From contig AJFK01000016.1 in the NCBI GenBank assembly GCA_000467715.1, positions 152,783-216,782 on the forward strand: 64,000 nt of DNA, written 5' to 3'. The notes below the pieces were generated by a model. The model was not told the DNA's origin. It saw nothing but the letters and a program-made list of their open reading frames with translations, and made no database searches. The translations under genes were made by a program, and so were the position numbers. Numbering within the stretch: the first letter of the stretch is position 1; every line of letters begins with the position of its first letter. Of the stretch, positions 3,001 to 38,997 are shown in pieces. The DNA is from Hysterium pulicare CBS 123377 (taxonomy: Eukaryota; Ascomycota; Dothideomycetes; Hysteriales; Hysteriaceae).

Positions 3001-4348
3001 AATGCACTACCAATCGAAAGCCCCCAGAACCCAGTGAATGCGATGTTCTGCTCGTAACCGACGCGCTTTTACCGCAACTGTCTGTGCCGCTCGTATGGTG
3101 CAGATAGGATGCTAGCCCAGTTATGAAGCTTGAACAATGGAAGCAGAAAGTACCGACGGCTGAAGCACTGCCTCCCCTCAACTTGAGTCTTCCAAAAGTT
3201 GACCCTTCGGCATTTCATTATCAACGTACTGCCTTCAGCCAATAATGTTGCTGCCTCAGCCGTCTGAGTCGCATGGGTCTCGGGGCTGAAGGCGTGAAGT
3301 GAGCGACAGGGTCATGTCATCGCGGCCCTCCCGAACTAACCTTGCCAGACCAACGGTAACGAGACGATGCAGGTACTTAGACTGGCTCCAAATCTCATGT
3401 ACGCGGTGACGGATGGCTTCTCCTAAGCTTGAAAAGGACCAATGGATTTCAGCACCTCCGTGGTGGGTACTAGGCTGACTATAAGCCCTACAAGGCTGCC
3501 ACAGAAGCATACCTAGCATGCTTTTTATCCTCGGCGCGGATCTGCTGGCCGGTGTATCTTGTAATAGACCAGAACGTCATTGCGTCTCTGACTGCGGATT
3601 GGCTCAGCGGGAGAACCGAGCTGGTCTTTGCCGGCTTGTCGCTCGTTCAAACTTTCCCAGAGCATCTCTTCAATCTCTAATACCTCTGGATCTCTTGGTC
3701 GATGCCTAAAGCCGTTGTTGACTATTACCCGTTGTCCGTTCGCGTGCTAGTTCACTCGTGGTTGGGAGTAAAACTCCTATCCAATCATGGACCTAGTAAC
3801 CCCAGAAAGCCTCGATTCCACAGTGGTTCGAGTCAATCCTGTCTATCTGTATCATCGCCGGGTCCGATATCTGGGACGGACCGTCGCCCACTTTAGGTCA
3901 GTCAAGAACCCTATTCCATCACACCACAGTATGAATATGTCAACATCCCTTTCCTCGGACTCACCCCTTCCACACTCCGCTCTTTAGCAGCTTTTGCTAC
4001 TTTCGTTGGTTGATTCTACAAGCCCAGTCGACTGTTGAATCAGTCAACCTTTAGGCATCAAGCTTTGCCCAGCTGAATGCCAAAACTTTACAGCCCTTTG
4101 TCGCATTCAGGAGCCATTTTCTAAACCTGGTCAGGAGCCGGTTCTCTACACCCAAGAAATGAGGCAGCCGTGACTCCTCACACACTCCCTATACAAAAGT
4201 TAATCAGGATCCATTGTCTTCCATGAGAGCTTCACACAAATTCGGAACAAGTACAACCCATCAATCCACGAAAACGACTCTTCCACCTCATCTACCACCA
4301 AGTGATTTGTATCACTGTTGCCAACCTTCCATCACTAAGGGCCGGATC
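1..4348. other. gene-poor region with decayed sequence
   Basis: No gene is recognised here. Open frames on both strands are short, overlap one another and show no familiar motif. The only structured element is at 143-330: an open + strand segment rich in Arg whose nucleotides also occur, diverged, at 8824-8915 (see the repeat entries). A 186-codon minus frame at 2384-2944 looks compositional. The final 200 bases are presumably the promoter and 5' leader of the bZIP-like gene that starts at 4349. Confidence 0.5.
143..330 (+). repeat. dispersed repeat, copy 1 (gene or transposon relic)
   Basis: From about 149 to 235 this aligns without gaps to 8826-8912. Shared blocks include ATACGCCTC, CAAACAGTGT and AGAAGAG at the same spacing. 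The + frame is open from 143 to a stop just after 325 and encodes a basic segment with LEDRITMVKQC, so it looks like a fragment of a coding element. I do not recognise the family. Confidence 0.4.
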
Positions 4349-6334: not shown

Positions 6335-7702
6335 ATGTCCGCTGAAGCATTCGAAAAGCTCACCCTCGAGGCCAGGGAAATGGTAACAACACGTGCTGGC
6401 GCTGCGAGGGCACCACACGTTATCGAATCCTCCAATTCAGATCTAAAATACAACGTTGACGACCTCGATAACGAAGCCCGCAAGCGTGCTGAGATAGCAT
6501 TCGGTGACAATGCAATCAAGATGAAGTACTGCATGCAATCCGCCGCGAATCAAGACGAGTACATATTCCACATCGACGACGAGATTACTGTTGGCATTGG
6601 TGGCCGTCGTTTCCCTGAACCAAAGTGCAACTGCGGAGCGAATGATGGAGGCCTTGCTTGTAAGGTGAGCTTTTTCTCTTTGAGGGTGCAACAATATGTT
6701 CAATCAACTGACTGGATCTGGAAGCATATTTTCTGGCTCGAGGATCAGCTTACCACCGGGGCACCGCCGCAGTTCCGGTCGAACGTCCTGCGGTTGAAAC
6801 CAGATGGCTCTACTGTGCATGACATGCAACCCTCGGAAATGATTAGCAAGATATCGTTAGAGAGAATCGCAGAAGGATTGGAGTGGGTACTCCACGATGG
6901 GTCTGAATTCGAAGACGATGACGCTGAAGAGCAGATCACCGAGATGCTCTCTGCTTTTGAGCCTTCTGGAGCATTCCCCGCAGAATTTAAGGCTATGTCC
7001 GAGACTAGCCCTATAAACGAACGAAGCCGAAAGTACAAAGAATTCGCGGACATGATCACCAACTATGCTACTCGGAATCTTGGGCTGGTCACCCAGCTCA
7101 AGGACATCATTGATTCGACATTCCTAGCACACACTTATATCGACAAAGTCAACGACAGGATCCGACGCGCTTTCCAAGCCTTGGACGAATATATCCTTCA
7201 TGGCCCAAAAGATGATCCAGCCGAAGCATGCAACGTTGTCACTTGCGCTGAAAGGTTGAAAGATCTAGTGAGCATGATTACGGAGTTCTATGAACAGCAA
7301 GTGAAAGATGATCCAGGCTCAAGAGAGGTCGCAATTCGCGTTGCTGCATCCTTGATTGCAATCCTTGAAGGCGTCACCGACAGGAGCCGCAATGCGTTTG
7401 AGGGCAATACATGGGGTGGTGCGATACCGGCAGACCCAGCTGAGAACAATCTTTTCGTCTGCCTCATTGGTGCACCAGCGGATGACGACGGGCTTTTCGT
7501 ACTGGACGAGCTAAGTGGATTTGGACAAGACAACTTGCTACGCACGAACTGGGAGGCTTTATCCAGGGTCGGGGAGAAGCTGAGTCGAAATGGCGGTGCG
7601 CCTTCAAGATTCATGAGCGACTTCCGGAGACTCACCTCAGACAGCAGGAAGAGGTCTTACCCTGAGGCTGGGGGGAGCAGTGCCAAGAGACCGATGAAGT
7701 GA
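6335..7702 (+). CDS. SWIM-type zinc-finger protein
   Basis: Two exons, 6335-6664 and 6725-7702, encode 435 aa. The SWIM zinc ligands C98-x-C100 and C109-x-H111 (CNCGANDGGLACKH) form only after removal of a 60-nt intron (GTGAGC ... CTGAC ... GAAG). That intron is a multiple of three and has no stop, so the unspliced frame also looks open and reads 455 aa. SWIM fingers bind DNA or proteins and occur in transposases, ubiquitin ligases and recombination cofactors; nothing else here says which. After the finger come an acidic stretch (about 185-200), a helical middle, and a basic Ser-rich tail ending KRSYPEAGGSSAKRP that could be a nuclear signal. The start is the first ATG. Function is unknown. 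Confidence 0.8.
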   Translation: MSAEAFEKLTLEAREMVTTRAGAARAPHVIESSNSDLKYNVDDLDNEARKRAEIAFGDNAIKMKYCMQSAANQDEYIFHIDDEITVGIGGRRFPEPKCNCGANDGGLACKVSFFSLRVQQYVQSTDWIWKHIFWLEDQLTTGAPPQFRSNVLRLKPDGSTVHDMQPSEMISKISLERIAEGLEWVLHDGSEFEDDDAEEQITEMLSAFEPSGAFPAEFKAMSETSPINERSRKYKEFADMITNYATRNLGLVTQLKDIIDSTFLAHTYIDKVNDRIRRAFQALDEYILHGPKDDPAEACNVVTCAERLKDLVSMITEFYEQQVKDDPGSREVAIRVAASLIAILEGVTDRSRNAFEGNTWGGAIPADPAENNLFVCLIGAPADDDGLFVLDELSGFGQDNLLRTNWEALSRVGEKLSRNGGAPSRFMSDFRRLTSDSRKRSYPEAGGSSAKRPMK

Positions 7703-30237: not shown

Positions 30238-31359
30238 ATGACATCTTTGAAAACTCCATCGTTACTCCCGACAAAATCAACGAATGACCTGCAAAGTTTA
30301 GATTACAAGCAGAAGTACAATCTAGTTACCAAGCTCTGGCCTTCTTCAGGTTTGACATTAACCGAGTTCTACGAGGATGACTATGCTGTGTTCTTCGACT
30401 TCTTGCAGCAGGAATTCAACCAAATACGTCCAAACCAATCGAAACTTGCGACAACTACTTTGGACTCAACGGCGGATTTAGTGCAGATTTTGAAAGAGAA
30501 CGTTTCTAAACCGCGACTACTCCTGGTCAGGATACTTCAAAAAACCTATCTGAATTTTGACGACGAGACTATTCTTCGGTCCATAGAACTAGCTATCCGG
30601 CTATGGTTAACTATCAATATCAATACCGCCAGCCTCGCCGTTGGACCCATCCAGGCTCATATCAACGCCATACAGTGGAGTAACAACGAGTCACTACTCG
30701 ATCTCGTCGGACGAGAATTTCCCGTTAAAGAAAACATCAAATCTCACCCCCAGCCCCTCGATAAAATCCATCCCTCATTCACGGCAGCCTATCTCGTCGC
30801 CACGTTTGGCATGAAGCTCAAATGGACCGACAACCTGGCAGACCACCTTACATTCGACCGCGACAACAGAATCCTGACCATATACCAACACAAAATCTGC
30901 TTGTTCAATCACGCAAAAGCCTCCGATATGAATGTCTTTCCAGTCGGCGTAGTACATGAGGCGGTCGACACGCTTAATCTCCTTTTCCCCTTCGGCGACG
31001 CAGCGACTAAGAACTTACTCTCAAAGCACCATCAACATTCCTTCTACGGCCTTGGGAACTGCGAGAGGGAGAGAGAGCTGAATCTCTCTGCGTACAATGT
31101 CTGGCGCGAGCAGCTGATAGAGTTGATGAAGGCTTTTAATGAACCGCCTAGGAATTGGCGCCAGCTGTGGAGTGATCGGAGGAATATGTTTGATTGGGTT
31201 ACGTTTTGGATTGCGGCGCTCGTATTGCTGTTGACGGTTATTAATTTTGGGTTTGGACTGGTGGCGATGGTGTTTCAGATCAAGCAATTTGATCTTGCCG
31301 TTGCGCAGGCTTGTATGGGTGCGGATGCGAAGGTGCTCTTGCCGAGGTTTTGTACTTGA
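30238..31359 (+). CDS. unknown fungal protein with C-terminal membrane anchor
   Basis: One exon, 373 aa, starting at the first ATG. The soluble part (1-320) has no catalytic motif that I recognise; it includes an all-helical middle (LVRILQKTYLNFDDETILR) and KLWPSSGL near the front. A C-terminal hydrophobic stretch of about 25 residues (about 325-350, VTFWIAALVLLLTVINFG) forms one membrane helix, followed by a short Cys-containing tail. The layout (RNMFDWVTFWIAA...) matches a large group of uncharacterised fungal proteins in which a regulatory domain precedes a C-terminal helix. Function is unknown. It is convergent with the fusion gene; the ends are 210 bases apart. Confidence 0.75.
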   Translation: MTSLKTPSLLPTKSTNDLQSLDYKQKYNLVTKLWPSSGLTLTEFYEDDYAVFFDFLQQEFNQIRPNQSKLATTTLDSTADLVQILKENVSKPRLLLVRILQKTYLNFDDETILRSIELAIRLWLTININTASLAVGPIQAHINAIQWSNNESLLDLVGREFPVKENIKSHPQPLDKIHPSFTAAYLVATFGMKLKWTDNLADHLTFDRDNRILTIYQHKICLFNHAKASDMNVFPVGVVHEAVDTLNLLFPFGDAATKNLLSKHHQHSFYGLGNCERERELNLSAYNVWREQLIELMKAFNEPPRNWRQLWSDRRNMFDWVTFWIAALVLLLTVINFGFGLVAMVFQIKQFDLAVAQACMGADAKVLLPRFCT

Positions 31360-31569: not shown

Positions 31570-34500
31570 TCACTCAACCCGATTCTTTCGCAACGGCAAC
31601 TTAAATGCTCGCTTGGGAAGCAGAAAAGCGCAGATGAAGGCAACTGCCGCTGTACTAATGGAAACATACCACATATGCGTGATTGCATCATTGACTGCAG
31701 ACGGGTAGTGAACGCTAGCCTGCTTTAACCGCTGCTCGAGCTCTAAAATTCCGCTGGATAGAACAACCTTTCGAACCGTTGTGTTGAGTCCCGTTGTGTC
31801 ATTCACATTTTCCAGATTTGCGATAAGCCGGTTCACGAAGATGTTTTGTCCAATAGCAGTGAAGATGATACTACCAAGATGGCGGCCTAAAACCATAGTA
31901 TTTATGTCGATATGTTGATCCTCATCCGTGAAGAGTGTGGCATGAGCGTGGACCCATGAGAGGAAAGGCAGGCCAGTGCCCGCAGCGAACACAAACTGAT
32001 ATGGGATCCAACGTCCAGGAGGTATTTCAACCGTAAATGTGTGCAGAAGCGCCGCTCCGATGATGGTGAGAATTCCCGAGACATATACGAAAGGAGCGTA
32101 ACAGCGTGTTCCTTTCACCAGTGCTACTCCGACATGGCTAATAATAGTAACAGTGAGGACAGTCGGGAGACTCATTAATGCTGACTTTACAGCATTGACG
32201 CCTCTCACCGTTTGGAACCAAAGGGGAAGCTAGTGTTTGTTAGCATTGTAAACTTAAGTTAGAATGAGATAACTTACATATAAGCTGACTATAGCATATG
32301 AAGCTGCGAGAAAGGTTATATGCAGGAAGTTTCCCAACACAACACGGTCACTGAATAGACGAGTATATATCCCTTTCCTTTTGCGGAACTGTAAAGATAC
32401 GAAGAGAGCAAGGGAAAGGATTGCGAGAACTAGTAAGACAATGACCCTGCTATGGGTCCACGCATATTTCAGTCCAGCCAGTTGCGATGCTAGTAATGTG
32501 CAGATTAAAAATGACAACAGCGCGCCGCATTCGGTCGCAATCGCTGGAAAAGCGTTTGAGTATAGCTTCAGGGGATGCAGCTGCTTAGGAGGCGATTCCT
32601 CAGGAGGCGGTTGCTCGGGAGGCGATTGCTCGGGAGGCAGTTGCTCAAGCGGTGGTTGCTCATGGGGCGGTTTCTCAGCCGGGTTTGAGCGCGAGAGATA
32701 CATCCATTGAGCCGATGAAAGTATACTAGTAGTACTTAAGAGAGAAGCGAGAAAAAAGCACCATCTCCAGGTCACCTTGTCTGTGAAAGTACCCGCTATG
32801 AACGGTCCACACAGAGTGGTCAGACCGTATGCGACAAGGTTGAAGTTGGCAAAGGTACGACGGTAATGCGGGGGCAAAGAAGAACTCATCTTCCGGGTAA
32901 GTGCTGAAAATGAAGCTTTACTAAAGCCCAGAAGTACTCTAGCGGCGATGAAATTTCTAGAGTTAGACGCGATACCGCATGATGCGGTGCCGATTGTATA
33001 TAAAATCAGATTTACCATCGGAAGTCCGAGAAGAAGAGGTTTCGAAAGCGAAGGCTTAAGGACACGCTGCCACTGATCCAGGATGGCGAATACGCAAATG
33101 CCAAGACTGTAAGCAGATCCGTACCTGCACCAAGTTAGCTAATGGACTCTGACAGATTTTATGGTGCTATCAATACCAGCCAATGTAGTTAAGAGAATGA
33201 AAGTGGTCCGTGAGGTGAGGCATGGCAACTGTTATGGTCGAGACATCCTATACAGAGAATTAGAGGAACTCATACAGAGTACTACTAAGGTACTAACCAA
33301 CGCGTTCAAGCACGCGAATAGAAATACACAGATGAAAGGGAGGAGCAGTCTCCACTGTTTGAGGAGCACATTGAACAACCCTTCTTCTTTCTTTATCAGA
33401 GCTGATGGGGTACTGGGTACAAAAGACGGTGGCACTGGGGGAATCTTCGCGATAGGGAATTGTGAGCTGGGCCCAGCTTCAAGATCAGTCGTCTCAGGAA
33501 GATGAGTCTGAAACAGCTTTACGTAGTTAGACGGCCCACCAATGATAGACTTTCGATAGAGTGTTATATCGGAACACTGGCGGCCAGTGTTGGTAAAGAC
33601 AGACCTAATCCCAGACAGTATATTCTCAATACCTAACATGTGGCAGTAAGGTTCTTCTTCGTATGCAGCAATGATCATGCCTAACAAGGCTCCTCCACGA
33701 ACTACCCAGGAGCCCGAGGATCCAGGGACTGTAAGATCAGCACGAGCATTGAAGATGTTGTGGAGCAGAAAGACGTACCTAGTGGTGTCACCATTTGTAT
33801 CTTTCGCGTCAGAAACAATCCATCCCTCTGCAGAAATATTGAACAACCACGAAGGAGGTGCCCAGTACGCACTTCATTTGGACTGCAAAGAATATATACC
33901 GATCCGGGGTCCGGTTCTGAATCGAATGTCTCAACATTTACCCAGTTTGAGGCTCTTGGCGGCTTATATTGATTCGTGAAGAGGCATTCGGTTTTCGGAT
34001 TCAATTGGATTAATGCGAAATCCACGACCAGAGAGTCGGTGTCCACGATCTCAGTTACACCTTGGGCGCCGTACGACAATGGCCCAAGAGCTACTTCTAG
34101 ATGATTCGCGCTCTTGTAAACAGGACCTTGGATTGCTTCTTTGCCCTTTCGACTCTTAACGTTCTTGGGGTTTTGTGACGGTGAGTCGGTCACATTCGAG
34201 CTGTTACTGTTTTCTACAGAAATAGAAGGTATTTCCTCCTCCGTACCCAACCCTCCGGAGTCAGCATCGTTATAGGATGAGTCTCCGAAAGAACCCAAGA
34301 TCTGTCGTAGCTCAACGATAGAATGAGCTACAGTCAATCCGTAAACTGTATCGTTGACCCTAATGAGACCTCCAACTGTGGCGAATCGTTCATGCCGTCT
34401 TCCATTTCGCTCGCCCTCAATCCTCAGGGGAAACCCGCAGCCAGTCCTTTTGATGGCACGTAATTGGATTTGCAAGGTGAGGCTTATTTCATCGGTATTT

Positions 34501-35504
34501 TGGGTGAAATTATCATCGCTCAGCAACTTTGTAGAAGTTGCAGATAGTCGTGGGGCTGAAAGCGTAACTTGAACACGACCCCGACTAAAAAGTTTAAGAT
34601 AATTTAAGTCATGAATGTGTTGTTCTATAGCCTTAAGGCATTGTTTGCTACCACACTTGACCCATACTGTTGGTTGTAATTTGACAGTACGGCGCTTCCT
34701 ATCAGCCTGGCCGACCATACATAATTCGGGCTCGATGATCGTCTCCGAACGAGATAGTGACGGCGGCAGAGATTGTATAATTGGGTATAGATCTTTTAAA
34801 AGCCTTAGCCTCACGTGTTCGATCCAAGTTCTCTCTAAAATGAGAGGTGGTGGATGCTCTCTTAATTTTCCGATGTATATCCGTTTCGATGGCGAGTATA
34901 ACGATGGCAGAGTCGTATCTACAGTGACACTGTAATCAATCGAGATCTCCTCAGATGTCAATGGCGGTATTGGCGTAGATTTCAGAGGAGCAGTTCGGCA
35001 AGAAGAGATGGGGGTTATTGTGGACGCATTCGTATCGGCAGTATGAGTACTGAATAGAGAACCGATACGGGAGGATTCTTGACTAGTTGAGATGTCACTG
35101 TGTGTAGACGACTCGGTCACTCTTTGAATATTGTCATTCTGAGAGTTCTGGTTTGGTCCACTCTGAGTGACCGTGGTCGCCGGGTTAAGCGTTTCGGTAG
35201 GCTGAGTTTGCTTCGGAGCATCTTCGACCTCAATTACCACAGCAAGCGGCGCCGGGTTATTTTCTATGATCGCTGCAGATGATACAGGAGGAGTCCGAGA
35301 AATCTCGCTTGCTAATGGCGCCTTGGGGCTTATTGGTGCCAGGAAACTGACGCGCTTCTTGAGGGAGTCTGGTAAAGAAGTTTTTGGAGATCTCAGAGCT
35401 GGCGAAAACAACTCTTTCAACAACGCCCTAGTACTCCGCCGTGTCACATTCGTGGGTCCTTCGTCTTTTGTATCCGGCTTTTTAACTTGTAAAGTCGTGG
35501 ACAT
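31570..35504 (-). CDS. trypsin-like domain fused to DHA2-type MFS transporter (1244 aa)
   Basis: Five exons in minus order, 35504-33779, 33728-33298, 33247-33177, 33124-32278 and 32229-31570, join in phase to 1244 aa. Residues 1-210 are Ser/Pro/Thr-rich and disordered. About 365-615 looks like a PA-clan serine protease: YGLTVAHS with His394, VVDFALIQL with Asp495, and PGSSGSWVV with Ser580. A linker (620-700) leads straight into transporter helix 1 (LLPFICVFLFACLNALDVSTI), then the DHA2 signature HSLNYIGWYGSAY, motif C (YGLTTLCGPFIAGTFTD) and PLWFQTVRG. Both loop ends of helix 6-7 flank six PPEQ-like repeats (891-926). No signal peptide is seen, so the protease-like part should be cytosolic. 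Splice junctions at 33297/33248 and 33176/33125 restore the helix 1-2 consensus. Two separate genes is the alternative, but the transporter then has no start codon before helix 1. MFS motif A is poorly conserved. Confidence 0.7.
32588..32677 (-). repeat. six 15-bp tandem repeats coding PPEQx
   Basis: Six consecutive 15-bp units, each varying around GGAGGCGGTTGCTCG on the + strand, translate on the minus strand to PPEQ-type pentapeptides. They lie in the central cytosolic loop (residues about 891-926) of the transporter half. Unit number is likely to vary between strains. Confidence 0.9.
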
Positions 35505-36224: not shown

Positions 36225-37922
36225 TCACAATGTATACAGGAAGCCCGGTTTCTTATCACCCAACATCTCAACCTCCTCCCGACTCTTCCCTTCAGCCCAA
36301 TGATCCCTGTCACCCCTCAATCTCTTCTTATTCTCGTTAGCCAACAACATTCTCGTCACCACGCTTCCACCTAGCAAAAACAGCACCATATAAGCCAATA
36401 CAGTCGCGTGGCCTGGCTTGTACCTCGGTTTATCTTTCCCACGATAGATATTACTGCTAACAACGCCGTTAAGATTTCCCCAACCAATGACGAAACCTAT
36501 CGTAACACCTCGTTTGTAGACTCCTTCGACATTATTCGATGCCCAAGAGATGGTATTCGCGATGCAAGGATAAATTCCCAGGGCACCGAGGAAAGTTCCG
36601 GCGTAATTGACGCCAGGCTTTGAGGAACCCAGCAGCATGGCGAAGCCTATGATACCGAGGAACGAAACCCCAATATTACAAAGACCACGCTGTTTCGTCC
36701 GATCGGCTATATAGCCAATCGCAATCGTAAGGATAGCTGCCGCTGCATACGGTGGTACACTCAGGAGATTGGCCTTCGTAGACGTATACCCCAATTCATT
36801 GATAATCGTCGGCAAGAAGAGCGAAAAGGCGTATAAAGCACCATCGCATCCCATATATATAATCGCAAACGCCCATGTCTTCCAATCTAAAACCGAAGCC
36901 CAGAAATACTTCATCTTGAACTCTTCGTGCTCGGCCGAGGATTGATTGTCTGCTCTCAGTCTTCTTAATACACGGGCGCGGTCATCCGGAGTTAGAAACG
37001 TGGCCAAATCGGGGAAATCGTGCACCATCCAGTAAGATACGATACCGACGATGATTGTGGCGAGCCCCTCGAGGATGAAGATCCAGGCCCAGCCGTGCTT
37101 GCCTCCTATGCCATCCATGAGGGCGATGGCGGCTGCGAGGAGACCACCAAAGGATCCGGCGACTGCCGCTCCGGAGAAAAAGATGGCGGCTCGAATGCCG
37201 AATTCGGAGCGTTTGTACCAGCAGGACAGGTAGTAGTTTATTCCTGGGAAGAGACCTGCTTCTGCGAGACCGAGGAAGAAGCGCTAGGTGGCTAGTCGTT
37301 AGGATTTATTGTCTAGTTTCTGATTTTGGGTGAAGGGACATACAGCTGCAGCGAGACCTGAGAAATCATGAACAAGTCCCATACACGTCATACATATTCC
37401 CCAGAGAATCATGATGGCGGGGATGAATACGCTGGGACGCAGACGTTTGAGGAGAACGTTGGTAAGAGGCTCGAAGAGCGAATATGAGACGAAGAAGAGA
37501 GACAGCGCGGCATTGTACTGGCCGTCGGTCATTTTTAGGTTCTTTTGAAGTCCATCGATCTTTGCGTTCCCAATGTTTGTGCGGTCGAGGAAGGATATCA
37601 GGTAGAGGAAGCATAGCTATTATGTATTAACAGGGGAAAGTCAAGAAATTTGTCAAGTGCTGTAAATACCCAAGGAATCAGTTTGAGGTCCAATTTCCAA
37701 AGAAGTTTACGATCCTAGAGGAAAATATCAGCCCTACAATATCATGAATCGTGGGGTTAGCGAACATACATGAGCAGCGCGCTCTTCGTCACTCAGTCCA
37801 GCATCGGGATCAGCAATGTCGTGCCCATTCACCGGCGCGAACTCCCGCTCAACACCCAATTGCTTTTCCTCTTCAGATGGTGCGCGCAAGCTATCTCCAT
37901 TCTTTTCAAACCCCATAGTCAT
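36225..37922 (-). CDS. MFS transporter, anion:cation symporter (DAL5-like) family
   Basis: Four exons in minus order, 37922-37770, 37714-37670, 37616-37344 and 37283-36225, give 509 aa; exon 2 is 45 nt. The chain begins with an acidic cytosolic segment, then helix 1 (LIPWLCFLYLISFLDRTNIG) with the ACS-family LDRTNIGNAK block, the N-half RFFLGLAEAGLFPG motif, and twelve helices in total. C-terminal motifs include GYTSTKANLLSVPPY and the loop SNIYRGKDKPRYKPGH. Members carry allantoate, nicotinate, pantothenate, biotin or similar organic anions with protons at the plasma membrane; the substrate cannot be read from the sequence. Two in-frame ATGs (37922 and 37916) are equally possible. Confidence 0.92.
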
Positions 37923-38997
37923 ACGCGTGGTAAGATAATATCACGATGGAGTTCACGACGAAGGGAGGGCGCGTAGGCGAACTGCAGACGGATGTAGGTG
38001 GAAAGAAGCCCACTCAACAAGAGAGAAGAAAGCCCGGTAAGTAGGTCTCATATCAATAAAACCCCATGCAGATCGATAACCTTGCAAAATGTACCCCGAA
38101 AAAATAACGCCCCGGCATCATGCCGTCCTCGACTCCAGCTATGCAGGCTGAATCACTGCCAAAAACTACCAAAACAGGCAGGTCTTGGATCCCATGATCA
38201 GTGTGCCGTGCCTCTTCGGCATGATTTCTCACCCGGTCCACGAATGGCGTGGGGAAGTGCTGGAGATCTCCAGGAATCATAACTTTGCTTGGCACAGGAG
38301 CTTGGGGACGTTTTGATGCGGGGTGGGGCGGGAGGACGTAGGCCAAGAGATCCCGGCACATGGCAACGGCGTGAGTGGTGCGTTTTGACAGCTGTCGGCC
38401 CGCGTACCAGCTTTTTGTAGTCCCTTCTGCTGCAAACGTATCGTGAAGGATTTGTTTGGTACCTCGGTATGTTGGACTCTGAGAGTCGGTAGCATAATGC
38501 TTCCTGTCCCCTCATAGTCTCCTGCTTCTTAGTTTCCTATACCTCTACTTGAGGGCATATATGGAGGTTCTTACCGTAGGCGCAATAGGTTCGGCCTCCG
38601 TACCACTAATCAAATCCAGTTCGCGTCTGTACACGCGATAGGTTTGGGCTCTGTATTGAATGAAAGACGAGACGTGCAAGTATCTCAGTTTGGTTTACTC
38701 TGTTGAGCCTGTTCCTCGGGGACTTGTCCTTCCCTTTCTATCCAATCTCATGTCCCCTTCAGTGTAGACAGTGATACATCAGAACTGTATGTCAAAAGTA
38801 GTTCCAATGAGTCTTCTGAAATTAAAATGATATACATACATTCAACTAATTCTACATTCCAGCACTGGTCTACTGCCTTCAAGTCTAAGACCTCGAAAGA
38901 TTATCCTACAGTTCCTATGTACGATGCAAACCATGCTTAGATCTAAAACCCGTAGAGATGCAAACTTGTTCATGAGAGACAGGTTTCGTTCGCCTCT
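37923..38997. other. intergenic with an unassigned open frame
   Basis: About 1.1 kb between the starts and ends of neighbouring minus-strand genes. It contains the 152-codon open frame described at 38053-38511. The remainder has no feature that I can support. Confidence 0.4.
38053..38511 (-). CDS. possible exon of an unrecognised gene
   Basis: A minus frame of 152 codons is open from just after a TGA at 38514. Its first ATG is at 38361, giving a 102-aa product. The sequence is protein-like: KQILHDTFAAEGTTKSWYAG, RTTHAVAMCRDLLAYVLPP, PVLVVFGSDSACIAGVEDG. Just upstream a GTAAGA donor (about 38573) and a TATGAG acceptor could attach a small exon ending YGGRTYCAYG in phase. I do not recognise the family and no complete gene can be built. 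Its isolation next to the MFS promoter leaves a decayed gene as a real possibility. Confidence 0.3.
   Translation of the reverse strand, partial: GDRKHYATDSQSPTYRGTKQILHDTFAAEGTTKSWYAGRQLSKRTTHAVAMCRDLLAYVLPPHPASKRPQAPVPSKVMIPGDLQHFPTPFVDRVRNHAEEARHTDHGIQDLPVLVVFGSDSACIAGVEDGMMPGRYFFGVHFARLSICMGFY

Follow-up and report, generated by a model that had tools for sequence, protein, structure and literature searches.

A predicted SltB-like serine protease joined in one reading frame to a DHA2-type MFS domain in Hysterium pulicare

In a stretch of 64,000 nucleotides from the ascomycete Hysterium pulicare CBS 123377 (contig AJFK01000016.1, positions 152,783 to 216,782; this whole stretch is called the window below), one gene on the minus strand joins a serine protease-like domain to a transporter domain of the major facilitator superfamily (MFS). 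We suspect that its product is a single-chain membrane signalling protease in which an MFS receptor controls a serine protease of the SltB kind, a type of switch that serves fungi in stress signalling; this is a reading that we hold about as readily as we doubt it. The protease half is kin to an SltB-like protein of the same genome, the architecture recurs at a second locus, and the two fusions have related neighbours. The genome searched comprises 37.2 Mb in 596 contigs, and C-numbers below denote its contigs or loci.

The gene runs from 35504 to 31570 on the minus strand, and splicing of its five exons gives a frame of 1244 amino acids with zero internal stops. Exon 1 (33779..35504) encodes residues 1-575, which comprise a low-complexity N-terminus (residues 1-190, of which 65% are S, T, P, N, Q, E, D, K or G), an alpha/beta-like segment preceding the protease domain (~209-330, delimited by eye from the alignment), and the part of the protease that carries H394 and D495. 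Intron 1 (33729..33778; 50 nucleotides, phase 1) interrupts codon 576, with S580 four residues further on, and is followed by the chimeric exon 2 (33298..33728), which encodes the motif PGSSGSW with Ser580, the protease C-terminus, a Pro-rich linker and the first half of MFS helix 1, ending in FACLNAL. Intron 2 (33248..33297; 50 nucleotides, phase 0) lies between the AL and the D of this helix. The remainder of helix 1 (from D720), as far as the split codon of W743, is encoded by exon 3 (33177..33247), the central part of this domain, including a loop insert rich in Pro, Gln and Glu, by exon 4 (32278..33124), and the C-terminal part with the stop codon by exon 5 (31570..32229); introns 3 and 4 between them measure 52 and 48 nucleotides. 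All four introns are of the GT...AG type, span 48-52 nucleotides and have a CTRAY-type branch-point-like sequence 12-16 nucleotides upstream of their ends. The fusion junction itself lies inside a single exon of 431 nucleotides, with no gap.

A first-pass annotation of this DNA had proposed just such a five-exon chain of 1244 residues, in which a transporter that lacks a plausible start of its own continues the frame after H394, D495 and S580, and the spliced frame bears it out. Between S580 and residue 760, methionines occur only at 593 and 606, within the protease region, and at 728, past helix 1 and Asp720, so that a separate transporter would have to begin inside the protease or forfeit helix 1. 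The intron that the same annotation placed between FICVFLFACLNAL and DVSTI also proves to be well formed, and it is common to half of the DHA2 paralogue loci considered below. Judged from its sequence, the frame is probably transcribed as one mRNA. An extra intron before the exon with the catalytic Ser (GTGCGT...CTGCAG), present in a first-pass gene model, was dropped because its sequence aligns with the relatives as exon 1 coding sequence. Retention of intron 2 (33232-33297) would add more hydrophobic residues and then a stop, a possible tail-anchored isoform of the protease. Neither Rfam nor tRNA scans gave a match in the window.

The three proposed catalytic residues, His394 in LTVAHS (codon 34323..34325), Asp495 in VVDFAL (34020..34022) and Ser580 in PGSSGSW (33715..33717), all encoded on the minus strand, are among the 40 columns that are invariant in an alignment of the window protease with its relatives at C90 and C465, three sequences from one genome. 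Because these columns are invariant in the three sequences, we regard the triad as more than a set of chance motifs. A genome search with the window protease found one other locus, C90, in two exons (E 5.3e-4 and 0.0096), and a two-sequence BLASTP comparison of this pair gave 73.6 bits (E 1e-18) with 28% identity over residues 376-618. C90 as query found C465 (E 3.5e-7), C465 found C90 in return, and a profile of the two matched the window protease over the Ser region with a probability of 94.2 (E 1.2e-7), five shuffles reaching at most 1.9. The C465 locus is the SltB-like gene of this genome (L050:4573-8958, minus strand), a single frame of 1442 residues with HeLo, a kinase-like DUF7580 and a C-terminal protease. 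This order is close to the pseudokinase-protease order reported for SltB (PMC4557415).

The window protein has no kinase-type Pfam match at E<=1, where C465 has one, and since it lacks an N-terminal pseudokinase we do not class it as SltB. Nor does the window protein match PF08192 (Peptidase S64, the family of Ssy5) at E<=1; its protease piece gave no match to this family at E<=10, in a search whose HMMER filters discard most weak matches. The genome as a whole yielded no Peptidase_S64 match over the cut-off, the best being C222 with a sub-threshold E of 0.132. The protease of C222, which stands alone and has a PGDSG motif, is a more distant relative of the window protease (probability 94 at the Ser region and <2 for the other two pieces). 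At C222:39937-40236 (L052) this stand-alone fungal PA-like protease reads LPGDSGAWVV, with a PPTIIITS segment upstream. Pattern searches gave 33 matches in viral contigs and 72 in bacterial and archaeal genome contigs, with zero relatives among either. These comparisons of sequence suggest that the protease is SltB-like, and neither a member of S64 nor SltB. Kinship to C90 and C465 sharpens the earlier label of trypsin-like protease from generic trypsin to the SltB kind, and the regulator-like role proposed for it is supported. The predicted protease is presumably proteolytically active. Hydropathy over 19-residue windows shows nothing above threshold before residue 693. The N-terminus of DHA2 carriers is cytosolic, so the protease would be cytosolic, as first annotated, if the MFS topology is the usual one.

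The second half of the chain matches PF07690 (MFS_1) with 88.4 bits against a cut-off of 33.4, the best stretch being residues 710-1125; the DHA2 label, the motif names and the helix assignments used here are our own assumptions. In an alignment of DHA2 paralogues anchored on the window sequence, the window MFS keeps 51 of the 76 columns that are conserved in 16 paralogue loci, and the same count for the paralogues runs from 53/79 (C197) to 70/71 (C51). Four glycines are replaced, namely at Q762 in loop 2-3 (motif A) and at A804, S811 and S814 in helix 4; the paralogues have Gly at these positions in 12/13, 16/16, 15/16 and 15/16 cases, respectively. With these glycines lost and 51/76 columns kept, a sensor-like (transceptor) role appears no less likely than export. 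The changed residues are what a transporter turned receptor might show, although loss of transport is unproved, and C197 is equally divergent yet has no fusion. The earlier description as an exporter is less well supported in view of the changed loop 2-3 and helix 4 glycines. DHA2 carriers have 14 transmembrane helices; simple hydropathy gives 8 peaks over threshold in the window protein. The central loop of the MFS domain contains a Pro/Gln/Glu-rich repeat of PPEQ-like units (32583-32690, exon 4).

The introns that bound exon 2 appear to have different origins. In Aspergillus nidulans, sltB has a single intron with its donor at nucleotides 3413-4, and the catalytic Ser is residue 1142 (PMC4557415). 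By our calculation from these coordinates, the sltB intron splits codon 1138 in phase 1, with the Ser four residues further on, and intron 1 of the window gene equals it in phase and in offset. Intron 1 is also present in the C90 copy. Downstream, a helix-1 intron exactly between AL and D and in phase 0 is found in 8 of the 16 DHA2 paralogue loci, with donors checked for these eight; five others read through, and the register is ambiguous in three (C300, C582 and C304). A seventeenth DHA2 locus, C197, which fell outside the script filter, reads through without a helix-1 intron. Intron 2 is, as far as this comparison goes, an old DHA2 intron. Flanked by an SltB-type intron upstream and a DHA2-type intron downstream, exon 2 carries the signature of a gene fusion, with the junction inside this exon.

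Our comparisons indicate that the protease-MFS architecture is present twice in this genome, in the window and at C90. At C90 an open frame comes after the protease on the same strand and leads through a linker into MFS helix 1 (GVDQTSF). Further along, a C-terminal MFS half can be aligned to window residues 970-1238, interrupted by three GT-AG introns and by no stop. Both copies, about 28% identical, retain the triad. We had considered that the two fusions might share both introns bounding the chimeric exon, but the 5' intron is shared and the helix-1 intron is not. The helix-1 intron of C90 lies three codons upstream of the Asp, as aligned by eye to the stand-alone locus C448. A different C90 intron (6558-6605, phase 2) matches, again by eye, an intron of C448, and the window intron is elsewhere and in another phase. 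Among the 17 DHA2 loci compared, this second intron was shown in none other than the pair C90 and C448. A short run-on comparable to that from retention of intron 2 in the window gene is seen at C90.

Whether these are one fusion or two was addressed with a tree of 19 C-terminal MFS segments, in which C90 groups with C448 (98/95) and the window with C263 (83/72); both fused rows have very long branches in this tree, and the C448 row is 143 residues. An earlier tree (LG+G4, 16 rows) again paired C90 with C448, with a support of 99. Constraining the window and C90 MFS halves together cost 19.2 log-likelihood units and was marginally rejected by the approximately unbiased test (p-AU 0.043). The two MFS halves may therefore belong to different DHA2 lineages, in which case the fusion may have occurred twice. 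There are three options: the protease met DHA2 carriers on two occasions, one of the two MFS halves was swapped, or the tree is misleading. The architecture would be real under all of them and convergent under the first.

A further link between the two fusions comes from their surroundings. The gene that converges on the fusion in the window (30238..31359, plus strand) encodes a protein of 373 amino acids with a C-terminal hydrophobic stretch, recognised by eye. Two genome searches found two close members of its family and one distant member (C23), and the two close members are the neighbours of the two fusions, arranged tail-to-tail with the fusion gene in the window and head-to-head with that at C90. 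When window frames of >=60 codons were compared with C90:1-18000 at E 1e-3, the fusion and neighbour genes both matched, along with a second neighbour frame (E 0.001) and two unrelated weak matches (~1e-4). That the pair has stayed linked while its surroundings differ argues for a functional unit, and the presence of a second fusion gene, again next to a member of this family, suggests a one-piece sensor-and-switch and not an assembly accident. The neighbour protein would be the first choice as a candidate adaptor or substrate; its predicted structure, with a predicted local distance difference test (pLDDT) score of 38.2, is too poor for a fold. The distant family member (C23:77009-77629, L051) also has a hydrophobic tail, and protease searches with the window, C90 and C465 queries gave no match on C23. 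Directly upstream of the fusion, at 36225-37940, lies another MFS-like gene, presumably of a different MFS type from the fused one, as labelled by eye.

If the product is indeed a receptor-controlled protease, the low-complexity N-terminus and the small alpha/beta-like pre-domain would stand ahead of a cytosolic PA-clan (chymotrypsin-like) serine protease, whose C-terminus would be tethered to the divergent DHA2-type MFS domain. This domain would serve as a receptor, or would combine sensing with transport, and binding of a ligand to it would lift the inhibition of the protease. The freed protease would then cut a membrane-proximal or transcription-factor substrate, with the neighbour protein and its hydrophobic tail as a possible adaptor or substrate. 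One chain would thus do what the yeast SPS system (Ssy1-Ptr3-Ssy5) does with separate Ssy1 and Ssy5.

Use of the transporter fold for sensing has precedent among the fungal MFS transceptors or sensors Snf3 and Rgt2, and MtLat-1 is reportedly another, but we know of no such protein with a protease in the same chain. Ssy1 is not known to be an MFS protein. Like DHA2 carriers, the window chain has an MFS_1 match, the helix 1 Asp, the helix 4 Arg, the Gly-Pro pair and the helix-1 intron; unlike them, it has changed glycines in loop 2-3 and helix 4, a Pro-rich loop insert and an N-terminal protease. The resemblance to SltB, judged through C465 rather than the A. nidulans protein, extends to the protease domain, the preceding alpha/beta-like segment and the His-Asp-Ser order, and that to A. 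nidulans sltB to the phase-1 intron at the same distance before the Ser. SltB of A. nidulans is described as an N-terminal pseudokinase joined to a chymotrypsin-like protease that processes the transcription factor SltA, with alternative splicing of the sltB intron (PMC4557415), and as cleaving itself to release the pseudokinase prodomain before it processes SltA (PMC11011638). PMC4557415 describes no transporter in SltB, whereas the window protein has a low-complexity N-terminus in place of the pseudokinase and a C-terminal MFS domain. Ssy5 of Saccharomyces cerevisiae is likewise a chymotrypsin-like protease, which together with its prodomain stays inactive until a signal comes from Ssy1, a receptor derived from a transporter (PMC12958826). 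SPS resembles our gene in that a transporter-derived receptor is coupled with a chymotrypsin-like endoprotease, whose N-terminal prodomain is partly disordered. It differs in comprising three separate proteins rather than one chain, in its S64 protease, a family with no match over the cut-off in this genome, and in that Ssy1 derives from amino acid transporters (PMC12958826).

Other explanations of the same gene have to be weighed against a receptor-controlled protease. The fusion may be real and its MFS half a working exporter, with the protease acting in cis either by cleaving the linker and so separating the halves or by controlling the stability or activity of the carrier. We consider this unlikely, though worth taking seriously, given that D720 (helix 1), R805 (helix 4) and G849-P850 (helix 5) are kept. 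These are presumably residues tied to proton-coupled DHA2 carriers, and with them in place transport would still be possible. The linker (640-695) is moreover rich in Pro and polar residues, and SltB is reported to cleave itself (PMC11011638). The changed glycines of loop 2-3 and helix 4 speak against an exporter, however, and a neighbour family common to both loci is more in keeping with a signalling module than with an exporter acting alone. Less probable again is a chimeric gene drifting without a selected function, in which two diverged domains were joined by chance. The long branches of both fused MFS halves, the 51/76 conserved columns kept and the frame change in C90 would fit such drift, but it sits poorly with 1244 stop-free codons and four well-formed introns, with a triad kept in both copies despite their low identity, and with members of one small family adjoining both fusions.

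Improbable to a slightly greater degree is that the gene makes two products, a protease with a hydrophobic anchor when intron 2 is retained and an MFS protein that arises from another start or is not made. Read-through of intron 2 does give ...FACLNALVSTLVVLCMSSSNSLYRMSRP-stop, with the open frame ending at 33232, and the sltB intron is reportedly subject to alternative splicing (PMC4557415). There is, however, no usable MFS start past S580, intron 2 has splice and branch signals and is shared with DHA2 loci, and C90 is likewise open from the protease into helix 1. An assembly or sequencing artefact joining two genes, which the division of the genome into 596 contigs might invite, is hardly credible; we discarded it because the junction lies gapless within one 431-nucleotide exon and the architecture recurs at C90.

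Several results weigh against a receptor-controlled, SltB-like protease, beyond the kept transport residues just mentioned. The direct two-sequence BLASTP comparison of the window protease with C465 is weak, with two collinear pieces (E 0.011 and 0.099); a genome search at E 0.1 with the window protease as query misses C465, and C465 as query misses the window at E 10. Pfam does not recognise the protease domain, a sequence profile search of the PDB with it gave one match, unrelated, at E 5.1, and the predicted structure of exon 1 residues 205-575 (pLDDT 34.5) is too poor for a fold, so that the assignment of a protease fold rests on motif order and kinship. C465 is also one uninterrupted frame, without the intron before the Ser. 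At C90, the 5' part shifts frame near 3690 within a conserved segment, probably through a frameshift, and the middle part of the MFS yields no confident gene model. Finally, the C90 MFS groups with the stand-alone C448 and not with the window, and the second copy is thus no simple proof of one conserved fusion.

A broader proposal, which we advance more tentatively and with some doubt, is that filamentous fungi have a hitherto undescribed class of one-chain receptor-proteases in which an SltB/Ssy5-like protease is joined to a DHA2 MFS receptor and served by a dedicated membrane-anchored partner. Such a class would have arisen on two or more occasions, from different DHA2 carriers, with selection repeatedly placing the protease under the direct control of a transporter fold. 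We sought the architecture among fungi in this one genome, and our statements on its occurrence are confined to it. In the open-access literature we found no described protease-MFS fusion of this kind, in agreement with the first-pass annotation, which knew of no such family; annotated but undescribed orthologues are likely to exist in other fungi.

The gene extends MFS architectures beyond those we found described. The handover of a signal from a transporter-like receptor to a protease has been studied in the yeast SPS system, with three proteins and predicted complexes. In a single polypeptide, the coupling of receptor to protease would be open to one-residue mutation on either side. The literature consulted names no upstream sensor of the SltB protease, and, to judge by the fused MFS domain, a receptor of the transporter type is a plausible candidate for this upstream partner.

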